This document shows positions 1 through 32,866 of a stretch of 32,866 nt of DNA, in pieces. The translations under genes and the position numbers were made by a program. A model generated the notes under the pieces. That model was not told the origin of the DNA, made no database searches, and saw nothing but the letters and a program-made list of their open reading frames with translations. Each line of letters opens with the position of its first letter. The first letter of the stretch is position 1. Source of the DNA: Chitinispirillales bacterium. GTDB lineage: Bacteria; Fibrobacterota; Chitinivibrionia; Chitinivibrionales; Chitinispirillaceae. Where the stretch lies: positions 1-32,866 of the forward strand of contig JAITFI010000053.1 of assembly GCA_031281485.1 (NCBI GenBank), in the 5' to 3' direction.

Positions 1-110
1 CAAATTCTTTAAATCTTTTTTAGACGAAGCCTAAAAAAGTCAAATTCTTTAAATCTTTTTTAGACGAAGCCTTCGGCTTCATAGGATATGCGGGGCTAAA
101 CCCCGCATAT
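1..110 (+). repeat. Modular palindromic intergenic repeat, copy 1
   Basis: A 32-base AT-rich module (A, 1-32) is repeated exactly at 41-72 with a period of 40. It runs into a short hairpin (66-80, stem GAAGCC/GGCTTC) and then module C (81-110), whose stem ATATGCGGGG (86-95) pairs with CCCCGCATAT (101-110) around the loop CTAAA. The same A-hairpin-C order recurs at 32731-32823 and, inverted, at 187-300 and 8541-8690. No open reading frame of substance covers it. It resembles REP/MITE-like intergenic elements. Whether it is mobile, a terminator or an mRNA end structure cannot be decided from sequence. Confidence 0.85.
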
Positions 111-186
111 ATAAAATCAAAAGTAACGTCAAAATCAACGGCAACGGCGGGACGGCGTGTAGGGGTGGTGCCTTTGACGTTGACTC
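111..186. other. Spacer between two inverted repeat copies
   Basis: Seventy-six bases separate the inward-facing copies at 1-110 and 187-300. The spacer shares short blocks (AACGTCAAAA and GCCTTTGAC) with the sequence following module C at the right edge of the window (32824-32855). It is therefore probably part of a longer repeat unit and not unique sequence. No gene is seen. Confidence 0.5.
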
Positions 187-300
187 ATATGCGGGGTTTG
201 GCTTCGCCGAGATAAACAAGTTAGCCCCGCATATTCTATGAAAGGGCGCGATTTATCGCGCCCTTTCGTCTAAAAAAGAATTAAAAGATTTTGATTTAAG
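187..300 (-). repeat. Modular palindromic intergenic repeat, copy 2 (inverted)
   Basis: Read on the minus strand this is A (267-300), then a GC-rich hairpin with a 12-bp perfect stem (AAAGGGCGCGAT, 241-252, with 255-266), then module C (187-234). The C loop is enlarged by about 24 bases that contain a further small hairpin GGCTTCGCC. Relative to copy 1, the hairpin between A and C has a completely different sequence but is still a perfect palindrome. Confidence 0.85.
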
Positions 301-392
301 TTCGGGGGTTTATCCCCCGAACTATCCTATGACGGCGCGCCCTTTCGTCTAAAAATGATTTTAAAGAATTTGATTTTAAAGATTTTGACTTA
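301..392 (-). repeat. Modular palindromic intergenic repeat, copy 3 (variant)
   Basis: On the minus strand, A-type sequence (about 353-392) is followed by a decayed GC-rich hairpin (about 333-346) and a C-position hairpin whose stem is TTCGGGGG/CCCCCGAA (301-308 with 314-321) in place of ATATGCGGGG. The conserved flank ATAGGAT is kept. The A module overlaps the 3' end of the neighbouring gene and supplies its last four codons and stop. Confidence 0.75.
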
Positions 393-1395
393 CGCTGATA
401 ATCAACGACACCCTCTCCGACTTCCCGTCTACCGTCTTTACCGTGCCCTTGACCAAATACGTTCCTGCCGGGACCGGGCGGCCATTGGCGTCTTTTAGGG
501 GCCATGAACCGACATGGCGCTTGGATTGGCTCTGAACGCCGCCGCCGGTCTTGACATCATTAATAGCTATCTTGCCGATGAACTTGCCGGCGTTGTTGTA
601 GACTTTCAGCGAAGAACTCTTAACTTGCTTGCCTACTCGGTAGAAGTTGACGAGACCCGCGGACTTGGGCACGGGATTTGGGCCAGCGGCGAGATCGGTT
701 GGCGACAATGTGATTTCCGGCAACATCATCACGGCGGTTACAGCTGCGCCGGTAGCGGTCTGCGAGACTGTCCGGGCGGATTCGTGGACTTTGGATGGTT
801 CGGGGTCCTCCCATGGTTCGGGTTCCCACGGTTCGAATAACAAGTATTCCAGTTTATCGCTCCAAACCCATTGCCAAGTTTCATCATCAAAGTGACTACG
901 CGGAAAGTAGTATATTTTCAGGGTGGTATCGATTAATTCAAACGTTTGGGCACCCCTTAAAGCATAAAAATATTTTTGATCTTCAGGTACTCCTCCGGGA
1001 CCGCCCTCAAAAACATTGTGCGGTTCCCCGAAAATACGAGTGAAATCGGACGTATACTCAACGTTATAACGATGATAACTCTCAATACTACCAAACCACT
1101 CCGTACTTGATAATCTTCCTGAATAACGAAAATCCATCGGATCAAATTCAAGCGTATACCATTGCTTAACACTATATATTAACCACGGATTGTCACTTTC
1201 TTCAACAAGAACCGGATCTATGCCATGCCAATACGTACTGCGATCAGCTTCTGTGAAATCGCCTGTTGCGACATCAACATATCCAACTAATCTCCATTTT
1301 GTACCCAGCAATACCGACGGATCTTCCTCACCTACCGCCGTGAGCGCCAGTAAAGCCAAAATAAATGTCAATCGTATGAAGATTCTTTTTTTCAT
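376..1395 (-). CDS. Exported lipocalin-like protein with C-terminal FlgD/Ig-like domain
   Basis: A 339-residue secreted protein of unknown function. The ATG at 1395 is chosen because GGAGG lies 5 bases upstream (1401-1405); an in-frame TTG at 1407 would place that site inside the gene. Residues 1-21 form a signal peptide (KKR, then a leucine-rich core) with no lipobox cysteine. Residues about 30-200 carry a GTKWRL start and alternating aromatic strands, like small lipocalin-like domains; the downstream neighbour (1521-2171) has a matching GTSWRL. A proline/glutamate-rich linker follows. Residues about 235-339 look like a FlgD/Ig-type beta domain (GPNPVP, then DANGRPVPAGTYLVKG), of the kind that ends many exported Fibrobacterota and type IX-secreted proteins. 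The last four codons and stop lie inside a repeat module. A hammerhead ribozyme sits in its leader. Confidence 0.75.
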   Translation of the reverse strand: MKKRIFIRLTFILALLALTAVGEEDPSVLLGTKWRLVGYVDVATGDFTEADRSTYWHGIDPVLVEESDNPWLIYSVKQWYTLEFDPMDFRYSGRLSSTEWFGSIESYHRYNVEYTSDFTRIFGEPHNVFEGGPGGVPEDQKYFYALRGAQTFELIDTTLKIYYFPRSHFDDETWQWVWSDKLEYLLFEPWEPEPWEDPEPSKVHESARTVSQTATGAAVTAVMMLPEITLSPTDLAAGPNPVPKSAGLVNFYRVGKQVKSSSLKVYNNAGKFIGKIAINDVKTGGGVQSQSKRHVGSWPLKDANGRPVPAGTYLVKGTVKTVDGKSERVSLIISVSQNL

Positions 1396-1400
1396 GATTT

Positions 1401-1405
1401 CCTCC
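1401..1405 (-). promoter_or_regulatory. Ribosome binding site GGAGG fixing the start at 1395
   Basis: GGAGG on the minus strand, 5 bases before the ATG at 1395 and 13 bases 3' of the hammerhead core. It would remain on the downstream fragment after ribozyme cleavage. A competing hairpin GAGC/GCTC (1422-1419 with 1412-1409) overlaps the 3' strand of ribozyme stem II but leaves the site free. Confidence 0.7.
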
Positions 1406-1417
1406 AAAGAGCTACCT

Positions 1418-1478
1418 GGCTCGTCAGTACCCGTAGGTTATCTCGGGTAGACATGCGGGTCACCCAGCTTGTTTCGCC
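1418..1478 (-). ncRNA. Type II hammerhead self-cleaving ribozyme (candidate)
   Basis: On the minus strand every conserved core position of a hammerhead is present in the circular order of a type II molecule (open at stem II). The 3' strand of stem II is GGC (1478-1476), then GAAA (1475-1472). Stem III (1472-1451) closes with A15.1-U16.1 and C-G pairs and a GGG/CCC hairpin with loop UGA. The cleavage-site C17 is 1450. Stem I is UACCCG (1449-1444) paired perfectly with CGGGUA (1433-1428) around a 10-base loop. CUGACGA (1427-1421) follows with no gap, then GCC (1420-1418) closes stem II with the required G10.1-C11.1 pair. Cleavage would fall between 1450 and 1449, about 54 bases before the ATG at 1395. 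Stem II is short (3 bp, then a purine-rich internal loop), which is the weakest point. Confidence 0.82.
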
Positions 1479-1520
1479 TTGCCGTAAATTTAGATAGACC
1501 CACTAATTCTGGCAAACAAA

Positions 1521-2171
1521 TTACATTTTGGTGAAAGTCCTTACCCACGTGTAAAAGGTTCTAAATCCTCTTGCATCACCCTCTCCTTCCCAGCAATTAC
1601 CTAATAGCAACATCGCTCCGTCATCGTTTAAAACTTTGTAATTTATTTCTTCACCGCAAATGTCATTACCGCCTTCTATTCTGTTCGTTGTATCATGAAT
1701 TTTTAAAATACCATTTTTTGTATCTTCGTCCTTAAAAAAAGCATATAAATGCTCTCCATTTGTTAATCTTTCAAACACAAATGTCTCATCGGGCAGCCCA
1801 GCTACCAACAGATCATTATTTTCTTTAAATGTAAAAGTAACATTTCTTTCCAAATATTCAACTTCTGCATACAATCTGTAATTCTTATAAGCGGTGAGTT
1901 TATTCAACCTCCAAGACGTTCCAGATATCACCAAGCCGTCTGCCGTCATAAATGTAGCTGGCGGGCGAACATCACAAATGTTCTGGTTATCCGGGACCTC
2001 AGAGTTATTTGACGAAGGAATCTCACCATTGTTCGGATTATCTGGGACTTCAGAATCTATTGTGTTGTTATTTAGGGTGACTAGTGATCCCCTATTATTG
2101 CCGTTACATCCCAATCCGTTAAACGTTACCAACGACAACGCGAGCAATAATAATAAGCGTACGTTTTTCAT
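1521..2171 (-). CDS. Lipocalin-like lipoprotein, function unknown
   Basis: A 216-residue predicted lipoprotein. The ATG at 2171 follows AAGGAAG at a good distance; a GTG one codon upstream is also possible. The signal peptide ends in a lipobox, NGLGC, with the cysteine at about residue 22. A low-complexity Asn/Ser/Pro linker follows in which SEVPDN occurs twice, probably a flexible tether above the membrane. The folded part (about residues 78-216) begins GTSWRL and is rich in beta-strand pattern, matching the GTKWRL start of the next gene downstream (376-1395), so the two are probably distant paralogues. Two Cys-Gly motifs and a further cysteine near the end could form a disulphide. No catalytic motif was recognised. 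Confidence 0.75.
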   Translation of the reverse strand: MKNVRLLLLLALSLVTFNGLGCNGNNRGSLVTLNNNTIDSEVPDNPNNGEIPSSNNSEVPDNQNICDVRPPATFMTADGLVISGTSWRLNKLTAYKNYRLYAEVEYLERNVTFTFKENNDLLVAGLPDETFVFERLTNGEHLYAFFKDEDTKNGILKIHDTTNRIEGGNDICGEEINYKVLNDDGAMLLLGNCWEGEGDARGFRTFYTWVRTFTKM

Positions 2172-2234
2172 CACATCTTCCTTCTTTTGAGTGAATGCCT
2201 TTATCCTCTTCTTGAGGTGGCTTAGTTTTTAGAC

Positions 2235-2334
2235 CGTTTTACAGATCATTTTAAATCAAAATCTTTAAATTGGCTTCGCCGAACTTCAGTCAACTGCCAA
2301 AGCCAACTGCCAAAGTCAAAACAATTAAATTTTG
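2235..2334. repeat. Partial repeat module and short tandem duplication
   Basis: The stretch 2252-2284 carries a degraded A module (ATCAAAATCTTTAAAT) followed by the small hairpin GGCTTCGCC seen in other copies. After it, CAACTGCCAAAG is repeated at 2291-2302 and 2304-2315 (period 13). The region separates the nuclease-like gene (stop at 2335) from the lipoprotein gene starting at 2171. No convincing terminator was seen. Confidence 0.5.
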
Positions 2335-4059
2335 TCACCCACCTTTTCTTACTTCACATCTTTTTTTATAAAAACCGATGCCGTATTTGATAATATTTTT
2401 ATAGCCTTCTTTGTCCCAAGCGGCAATGTAGTTCTTGTCCTCTATCTGCTTAAGGGCTTTTTCACACGCAATAGGCAACATATTAAATTCTTTAGCTACC
2501 TTAAATTCAAATATGACGGCTATGCTGTCTTTTCCGTTTGTACGGTACAAGACCAAATCGCCGCGTCCATCTCCGCTCTCTCTGTTGGATGCTACCATAT
2601 AGCCATTTAACTGTGCCAGAATCCCCAACACTCCGGCCATAAATCCGTGGTAGGAGTTCTCGGCGCTGTCCATGTAACTTATGCTTTCCGAAAGAAGCGT
2701 CGATAGCTCATTTTGGAATGTTTCGACGTCTCCGTTCAGAATGGTGTTGAGGAGTGTGTCGAGATTCTTTCCGGCCATTCGTTTTTTGAACCATTCTTGT
2801 ATCTTGGTTTTGTAGACATACCTCAATTCAATATTGGGGATTGACAAATCCAATGTTAATTCACCGTCGGCATTCTGACACCCATTCCTTATTTTTTTCA
2901 AATAACCGGTAAAAAACAAGAAATTCCAAAAGTTTTCGACATCATCATCTATTTCTTTGTATGTGATATCCTCATGAATAACCTTTGAAATGGTTTTACC
3001 GGCCATTAAGGTTTCAAGGTCGGCTTTCATTTCCGCGGTCGCTTTGTCCACCAAGTCATGGACAATGCTATTGCTGCTGGTGTTAACCCAATAGGGTTTA
3101 GGACGCTCATCTCTGTCCGCAAGCCAGTTATCCACCACAAACACAGAACTCCACGGATTATACACCTCTGTATTCCCAAACAGATAGCCGTTATACCAAT
3201 CCCTGACGATTTGCCTCTTATCCGAAAAACCGTAGTATTCCAACATATTATCCATCTCTACTTGCGTAAAACCGAAGTACTCGGAGCAATATTTATCGAG
3301 TATCGAGATTACTTTGAGATTGTTCAGCCCTGTAAAAATGCTCTCTTTGGAGACGCGCAAGCATCCTGTCATCACGGATAGTTGCAGGTGCGGGTTGTCT
3401 TTGAGCGCGCTACTAAGGAGCGGACGGATAAAACCGACCATTTCATCGTAAAAACGGGCGGAACAAGACCAAGCGTTTTCCAGCGGGACGTCGTACTCGT
3501 CAATTAAGATTATGGCCTTTTGGCCGTGGTAAGTCTCCAAACATTTACTCAAAAATTTGAGCGATGTGGAATAATCCATATCGGTACCGTCACCCGACAA
3601 CAACTTATCAAACATCTCACGATCTTCTTTGGGGAATATTTTTTCGGAAATATAGCCGTGCCGCTTAAATTCACCGACAATTTCATCTTTCAACATGCGA
3701 TACGAACGCTCAAACGTATCACGCTTTACCTCCTTAAAACTCAAGAATATCACCGGATACTTCCCTTGATGCTCAAGATACCGCTCGCCCGCATCCTCTA
3801 TCTTCAACCCGCGAAACAGCGCCCGCGTATCCTTGCCGCCTATTGGCGTCGTATCTTCAAAAAAACACTTTAGCATCGTCTGGTTCAGCGTCTTGCCGAA
3901 CCGACGCGGACGGGTGCAGAGGGTAACCTCCGCTCGTCTATCTAATATATCTTTGACAAACAAAGTTTTATCGACATAGTAACAACCCTCCTCGATCACT
4001 TTGTCGAAGATTGATTTACCTATCGGCAACGGCCTATTATTTACGTTTGTATCAGCCAT
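2335..4059 (-). CDS. AAA-ATPase-like / PD-(D/E)XK nuclease family protein
   Basis: A 574-residue two-domain protein of the AAA-ATPase-like plus PDDEXK_9 type (PF09820/PF08011 by recollection), a family expanded in gut anaerobes and of uncertain function. The start at 4059 (MADTN) is preferred to an upstream start at 4128, which would overlap the enzyme I gene; AAGG lies 5-6 bases upstream. Residues 10-45 are the family N-terminus. CTRPRRFGKT (48-57) stands where a Walker A loop is expected but is not a canonical GxxxxGK[ST]. IILIDEYD (183-190) is the Walker B-like strand. Near the C-terminus, GRGDLVL (D501) and EFK (E518, K520) form the nuclease signature, followed by QIEDKNY. The gene starts 22 bases after the enzyme I stop and is probably cotranscribed. 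DNA cleavage is inferred, not shown. Confidence 0.88.
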   Translation of the reverse strand: MADTNVNNRPLPIGKSIFDKVIEEGCYYVDKTLFVKDILDRRAEVTLCTRPRRFGKTLNQTMLKCFFEDTTPIGGKDTRALFRGLKIEDAGERYLEHQGKYPVIFLSFKEVKRDTFERSYRMLKDEIVGEFKRHGYISEKIFPKEDREMFDKLLSGDGTDMDYSTSLKFLSKCLETYHGQKAIILIDEYDVPLENAWSCSARFYDEMVGFIRPLLSSALKDNPHLQLSVMTGCLRVSKESIFTGLNNLKVISILDKYCSEYFGFTQVEMDNMLEYYGFSDKRQIVRDWYNGYLFGNTEVYNPWSSVFVVDNWLADRDERPKPYWVNTSSNSIVHDLVDKATAEMKADLETLMAGKTISKVIHEDITYKEIDDDVENFWNFLFFTGYLKKIRNGCQNADGELTLDLSIPNIELRYVYKTKIQEWFKKRMAGKNLDTLLNTILNGDVETFQNELSTLLSESISYMDSAENSYHGFMAGVLGILAQLNGYMVASNRESGDGRGDLVLYRTNGKDSIAVIFEFKVAKEFNMLPIACEKALKQIEDKNYIAAWDKEGYKNIIKYGIGFYKKRCEVRKGG

Positions 4060-4081
4060 AAAAACCTTAAAACCTCCGGCT

Positions 4082-32730: not shown

Positions 32731-32866
32731 ATCAAAATCTTTTTAAATCAAATTCTTTTTTAGACGAAAGGGCGCGATAAATCGCGCCCTTTCATAGGAT
32801 ATGCGGGGCTAAACCCCGCATATAAAGTCAACGTCAAAAGAAAAAAGCCTTTGACTTTGATTTTGA
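32731..32866 (+). repeat. Modular palindromic intergenic repeat at the right edge
   Basis: An A module (32731-32766) begins five bases past the alaA stop. A GC-rich hairpin with a perfect 12-bp stem (AAAGGGCGCGAT, 32767-32778, with 32781-32792) is followed by module C (32794-32823; stem 32799-32808 with 32814-32823). A tail follows (AACGTCAAAA and GCCTTTGAC) that matches parts of 111-186. The unit is cut by the window edge. Confidence 0.85.

Follow-up and report, generated by a model that had tools for sequence, protein, structure and literature searches.

The window analyzed here, all 32,866 nucleotides of contig JAITFI010000053.1 from a Chitinispirillales bacterium, very probably holds a genuine type II hammerhead ribozyme, phage-like in kind and probably active; the genes on either side share its strand and belong to a segment that reads as accessory and was probably acquired. 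The preliminary description had placed such a ribozyme in the 5′ leader of an exported-protein gene, and the sequence supports this. Our analysis at the level of sequence confirmed it as a sub-threshold yet convincing type II hammerhead in a typical position ahead of an untypical gene, and self-cleavage is likely, judged from the letters. Most known bacterial hammerheads are tied to phages. One whose neighboring gene encodes an exported protein and shows no sign of phage ancestry offers a tractable setting in which to ask if cleavage has any effect on a host message.

Architecture and covariance-model score

Read along the minus strand from 1478 to 1414, the elements follow in the order GGC-GAA-ACAAGCUGGGUGACCCGCAUGU-C-UACCCG-AGAUAACCUA-CGGGUA-CUGACGA-GCC-AGGU (Table 1). 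This is the type II permutation, with GAAA, stem III, GUC, stem I and CUGACGA in succession, stems I and III closed by loops, and stem II open. The strict core positions (C3 U4 G5 A6 N7 G8 A9, G12 A13 A14, the A15.1-U16.1 pair and H17, here C17) are all occupied as a hammerhead requires and are in register. All three helices are present at the core: stem I of 6 bp, stem II of 3 bp, and a stem III broken once by a mismatch and once by a bulge. The interior of stem III comprises an A·A mismatch, a bulged U, and a UGA loop; the isolated piece folds in this way at −5.8 kcal/mol, and this stem is weak. The core elements, their register and coordinates, the perfect 6-bp stem I, and the cleavage site at 1450/1449 were all found again as first described. 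The extent originally assigned to the motif, 1418–1478, covers these elements but not the whole, which reaches 1414 by way of a pseudoknot that had been overlooked.

Table 1. Features of the hammerhead locus and its flanking genes (positions are those of the window)
Feature	Position	Strand	Basis
Type II hammerhead ribozyme, including pseudoknot tail	1414..1478	(-)	RF02276, 29.1 bits; descriptor match unique in window
Stem II 5′ arm GGC and core GAA (G12 A13 A14)	GGC 1478-1476; GAA 1475-1473	(-)	sequence
Stem III	1451..1472	(-)	closing pairs A15.1-U16.1 (1472/1451) and C15.2-G16.2 (1471/1452)
Predicted cleavage site	1450/1449	(-)	after C17 (1450) of GUC; from hammerhead numbering
Stem I, UACCCG 1449-1444 / CGGGUA 1433-1428	1428..1449	(-)	6 perfect pairs, 10-nt loop
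Core CUGACGA (C3 to A9)	1421..1427	(-)	sequence
Stem II 3′ arm GCC	1418..1420	(-)	stem II is GGC/GCC, 3 bp
Pseudoknot strand ACCU within loop I	1435..1438	(-)	complementarity
Pseudoknot strand AGGU, first base right after stem II	1414..1417	(-)	complementarity; contact as in PMC3088659
Ribosome binding site GGAGG of downstream gene, outside ribozyme	1401..1405	(-)	sequence
Downstream gene, exported protein of 339 aa	376..1395	(-)	N-terminal signal peptide by eye
Upstream gene, putative lipoprotein of 216 aa	1521..2171	(-)	lipobox LGLGC by eye

The two pseudoknot strands form four Watson-Crick pairs at offset 0. In most type II hammerheads loop I can pair with the bases just past stem II, mutations that disrupt this pseudoknot cause a drastic fall in cleavage, and about 40% of all hammerheads probably rely on such a contact (PMC3088659). 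In one construct, shortening the pseudoknot from six pairs to four cost about 20-fold (PMC3088659). Because the covariance model contains no pseudoknot, the contact is evidence independent of the RF02276 score. The same criterion was satisfied by 9% of the chance descriptor matches in random sequence (see below) and by 46 of the 127 real phage type II hammerheads among the matches listed, so the pseudoknot alone lends the assignment modest support; one of about four or more pairs is common, not universal, in type II hammerheads.

At curated thresholds, Rfam reported no hammerhead in the window. When positions 1380–1530 were scanned under an E-value threshold, Hammerhead_II (RF02276) aligned along the whole model to 1479–1410 and scored 29.1 bits; for the 151 bases scanned and all 4227 families, E was 2e-4. 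The score is below the gathering score of 37 bits, and the element is therefore labeled a sub-threshold type II hammerhead and not a curated RF02276 member. The low score probably arises because stem III and the tail match the model poorly. The covariance-model check suggested in the preliminary description thus returned a Hammerhead_II match, though a sub-threshold one, and not an empty result. It is the top RF02276 match in its own genome (E = 6.8e-4; runner-up, 21.2 bits). Of 168 genomes of the phylum, three have matches at E ≤ 0.001 (G007, G105, and that of the window), and the window hammerhead ranks third. The type I and III hammerhead models gave nothing at E 0.1 across the genus. We also fetched the three stretches behind the weaker RF02276 matches in the same genome (21.2, 19, and 16.1 bits); these failed the core descriptor and are treated as chance.

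Genomic setting and position relative to genes

The GC content is 0.39–0.48 over positions 1–4000, compared with about 0.55 in the remainder of the window. The low-GC segment (1–4080) lies downstream of ptsI and carries an AAA-ATPase/PD-DEXK gene, the lipoprotein gene, the hammerhead, and the exported-protein gene. In five relatives, DNA similarity stops at ptsI in the direction of the segment (two of those contigs end soon after), and beyond ptsI a pilus-type operon is present in G003 (read from translations) and in G007 (by ORF layout). From the drop in GC, the end of similarity at ptsI, and the pilus-type operon found in its place, the stretch reads as an accessory segment. A search of the genus for orthologs of the hammerhead locus, which might have shown covariation, found none. 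Two over-threshold matches to Termite-leu RNA (RF01730), at 172–270 on the minus strand and 32763–32839 on the plus strand, lie one near each end of the contig; the pair hints that the contig broke at copies of a repeat and that the DNA may come from a termite gut.

The hammerhead sits between the stop of the upstream gene, which ends at 1521, and the downstream start codon at 1395. The downstream protein joins a rare N-terminal domain to a C-terminal sorting-like domain that is found in numerous proteins across the genus and shows only a faint likeness to FlgD-Ig and type IX sorting domains. Within the genus only the C-terminal domain recurs, apart from one weak N-terminal relative in G006, at whose locus the descriptor detected no hammerhead. 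Relatives of the downstream protein were absent from the genome_contigs, viral_contigs, and phages sets. It had been called lipocalin-like, a resemblance that found no backing in Pfam, NCBIfam, or PDB sequence matches to lipocalins. The putative lipoprotein encoded upstream has weak partial relatives in two genomes, and neither protein has a PHROG match or a usable PDB match.

The placement was compared with that of phage hammerheads. A pattern scan of viral contigs with 22 specified bases yielded at least 120 stretches (L064–L183), and 121 phage type II hammerheads had enough flanking sequence for analysis. Among the matches listed, 109 of these 121 are followed on their own strand, at no more than 150 nt, by an ORF with a ribosome site (29% at random positions), and in 98 of the 121 the distance is no more than 60 nt (13% at random positions). 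The distance from hammerhead to ORF has quartiles of 18.5, 24, and 30 nt among the phage matches listed; by the same measure, the window hammerhead is 22 nt from the start codon. An upstream stop codon usually adjoins the phage ribozymes (110 of 118 among the matches listed, with quartiles of 2, 3, and 6 nt), and such a stop occurs within 150 nt at 49% of random positions. Here the window hammerhead departs from the pattern, with a gap of 45 nt to the upstream stop versus the 2–6 nt typical of phages. The phage type II hammerheads fill the space from the stop codon, typically 2–6 nt before GAAAC, to the next ribosome site, and 15 of 120 viral loci carry more than one of them (among the matches listed).

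A position directly ahead of a gene, originally considered unusual, is thus the usual one in phages (98 of 121 within 60 nt, among the matches listed). The next-best RF02276 matches in the phylum also lie directly ahead of genes. Any functional account must explain why about four of every five phage type II hammerheads stand just before a gene led by a ribosome site. What is unusual in the window is the exported-protein gene, which has no phage-family match, and the low-GC segment, which relatives lack beside ptsI.

Proposed processing and alternative readings

We propose that the transcript would fold locally at 1478–1414 as it is made, and that pairing of loop I with the tail behind stem II would create the pseudoknot and so hold stems I and II together. 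The RNA would then cut itself between 1450 and 1449, after C17. The upstream product, the lipoprotein message, would have the stem III hairpin at its end and carry a 2′,3′-cyclic phosphate there; the downstream product, the exported-protein message, would start with a 5′-OH on the stem I hairpin. As had been predicted, a cut here would give the ATG at 1395 a 54-nt leader and keep the ribosome site GGAGG intact. Both ends might resist some nucleases. The preliminary description also proposed that 2171–376 is transcribed as one unit and processed into separately stable halves, which is reasonable given the shared strand, the 125-nt gap between the genes, and a pattern scan in which no terminator-like site was found. 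What the analysis shows directly is the sequence and its register, the model score, the complementarity of the pseudoknot strands, and a placement like that in phages; cleavage, co-transcription, and the effect on stability are things that we infer. The ribozyme was probably brought in by mobile DNA and probably acts on the message constitutively; nothing points to a regulated role.

Several observations weigh against an active ribozyme. The RF02276 score is under the gathering threshold, the locus lacks a detected ortholog and hence covariation at the site, stem III is weak, and four-pair pseudoknots can be slow (PMC3088659). Furthermore, competing secondary structures were favored, by 2.6 kcal/mol when the 68-mer was folded on its own and by as much as about 10 kcal/mol in longer transcripts, with neither the pseudoknot nor Mg2+ credited; the corresponding gap between hammerhead and competing fold is 1.0 kcal/mol for the over-threshold relative in G007 (contig C135). 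The weak stem III, the sub-threshold score, and competing folds favored by 2.6–10 kcal/mol without the pseudoknot, together with the non-phage setting, would also suit a decayed copy, that is, a true descendant of a phage hammerhead that folds or cleaves inefficiently in its transcript. Decay would be expected to strike some of the strict positions, however, and none of the core bases is lost; stems I and II and the 4-bp pseudoknot are likewise intact. We regard a decayed copy as unlikely.

Because the leader it occupies belongs to a gene unlike those of phages, the hammerhead could also be read as domesticated and regulated, its cleavage controlling the exported-protein gene, for example by way of a ligand or protein or by exposing the ribosome site. 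Similar regulatory roles have been proposed for other hammerheads (PMC3088659). The idea that cleavage releases the ribosome site was considered and rejected: predicted accessibility is essentially the same in cut and uncut transcripts with an identical end base (mean about 0.26 versus 0.27–0.32). Rfam recognized no aptamer-like domain in a scan of 1380–1530, and neither gene nor site is conserved in the genus; with these points against it, regulated control appears improbable. A broader proposal, in which a phage-type hammerhead domesticated in a bacterial accessory unit processes a host exported-protein message and determines how much of one exported protein is made relative to the other, seems to us doubtful.

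Chance expectation was estimated on a null of 14.2 Gb, simulated by a first-order Markov model from the dinucleotide composition of the window. A bare descriptor (core, stem I of at least 5 bp, stem II of at least 2 bp) matched this null 1054 times, corresponding to 0.005 expected per window and about 0.34 per genome. Requiring at least 6 bp in stem I, at least 3 bp in stem II, and the pseudoknot lowered the expectation to 5e-5 per window and 0.003 per genome, and adding a closed stem III to this fuller descriptor left no match in the 14.2 Gb. These lengths were chosen after the candidate was known, so the figures flatter it somewhat. That an intergenic stretch should look like a hammerhead by chance alone, a reading that would fit the score under the Rfam cut-off, the lack of conservation at an orthologous site, and the weak RF02276 matches elsewhere in the genome (about 16–21 bits) and in control genomes, is very improbable, since 29.1 bits is well above that background, the expectation is 0.005 per window for the bare descriptor and about 5e-5 or less for the fuller one, and the pseudoknot and the phage-typical distance give independent support.

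Comparison with known type II hammerheads

The strongest relative within the phylum belongs to the same genus (G007:C135, 1494–1559, minus strand) and scores 50.6 bits, over the cut-off. The contig is short and encodes a phage DNA polymerase processivity factor, and a small gene with a GGAGG ribosome site follows the hammerhead at about 22 nt; the type II arrangement and this spacing are those of the window hammerhead. In contrast to the latter, stem III is strong, stem I has 7 bp, the triplet is GUA, and the contig carries phage genes. A second match on this contig (L020, 3784–3854, minus strand; 23.9 bits) is cut by an assembly gap (a run of N) and lies ahead of the processivity-factor gene. 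No relatives of the G007 phage protein were found in viral_contigs. The other relative comes from a different family of the phylum (G105:C33, 4636–4707, minus strand, L063) and scores 35.4 bits. It shares the type II arrangement and stands about 30 nt before an ORF, but has a U4-to-C change in the core and an irregular stem II, and is near a RadC-like gene with a phage-family match.

Further afield, type II hammerheads of Colwellia and of an Alteromonadaceae bacterium (MAG) share GUCUACCC...GGGUACUGANGAG with the window, that is, the letters of the cleavage triplet and stem I. In these hammerheads, at L184 (3917–3970, plus strand) and L185 (709–760, minus strand), the window's GUCUACCC...GGGUACUGA letters are also found. 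Unlike the window hammerhead, these two have a perfect stem III and are surrounded by prophage genes; the regions look like Mu-like prophage, an identity read from translations.

With the RF02276 type II hammerheads (Perreault et al., 2011; PMC3088659), the window hammerhead has in common an open and short stem II, an intact core, a pseudoknot between loop I and the 3′ tail, and an intergenic placement. It is set apart by its score (29.1 bits, less than 37), its interrupted stem III, its particular pseudoknot (ACCU/AGGU), and an exported-protein gene in the place of phage genes. It is thus another type II hammerhead, in a gene-adjacent arrangement that is already the rule in bacteriophage genomes.
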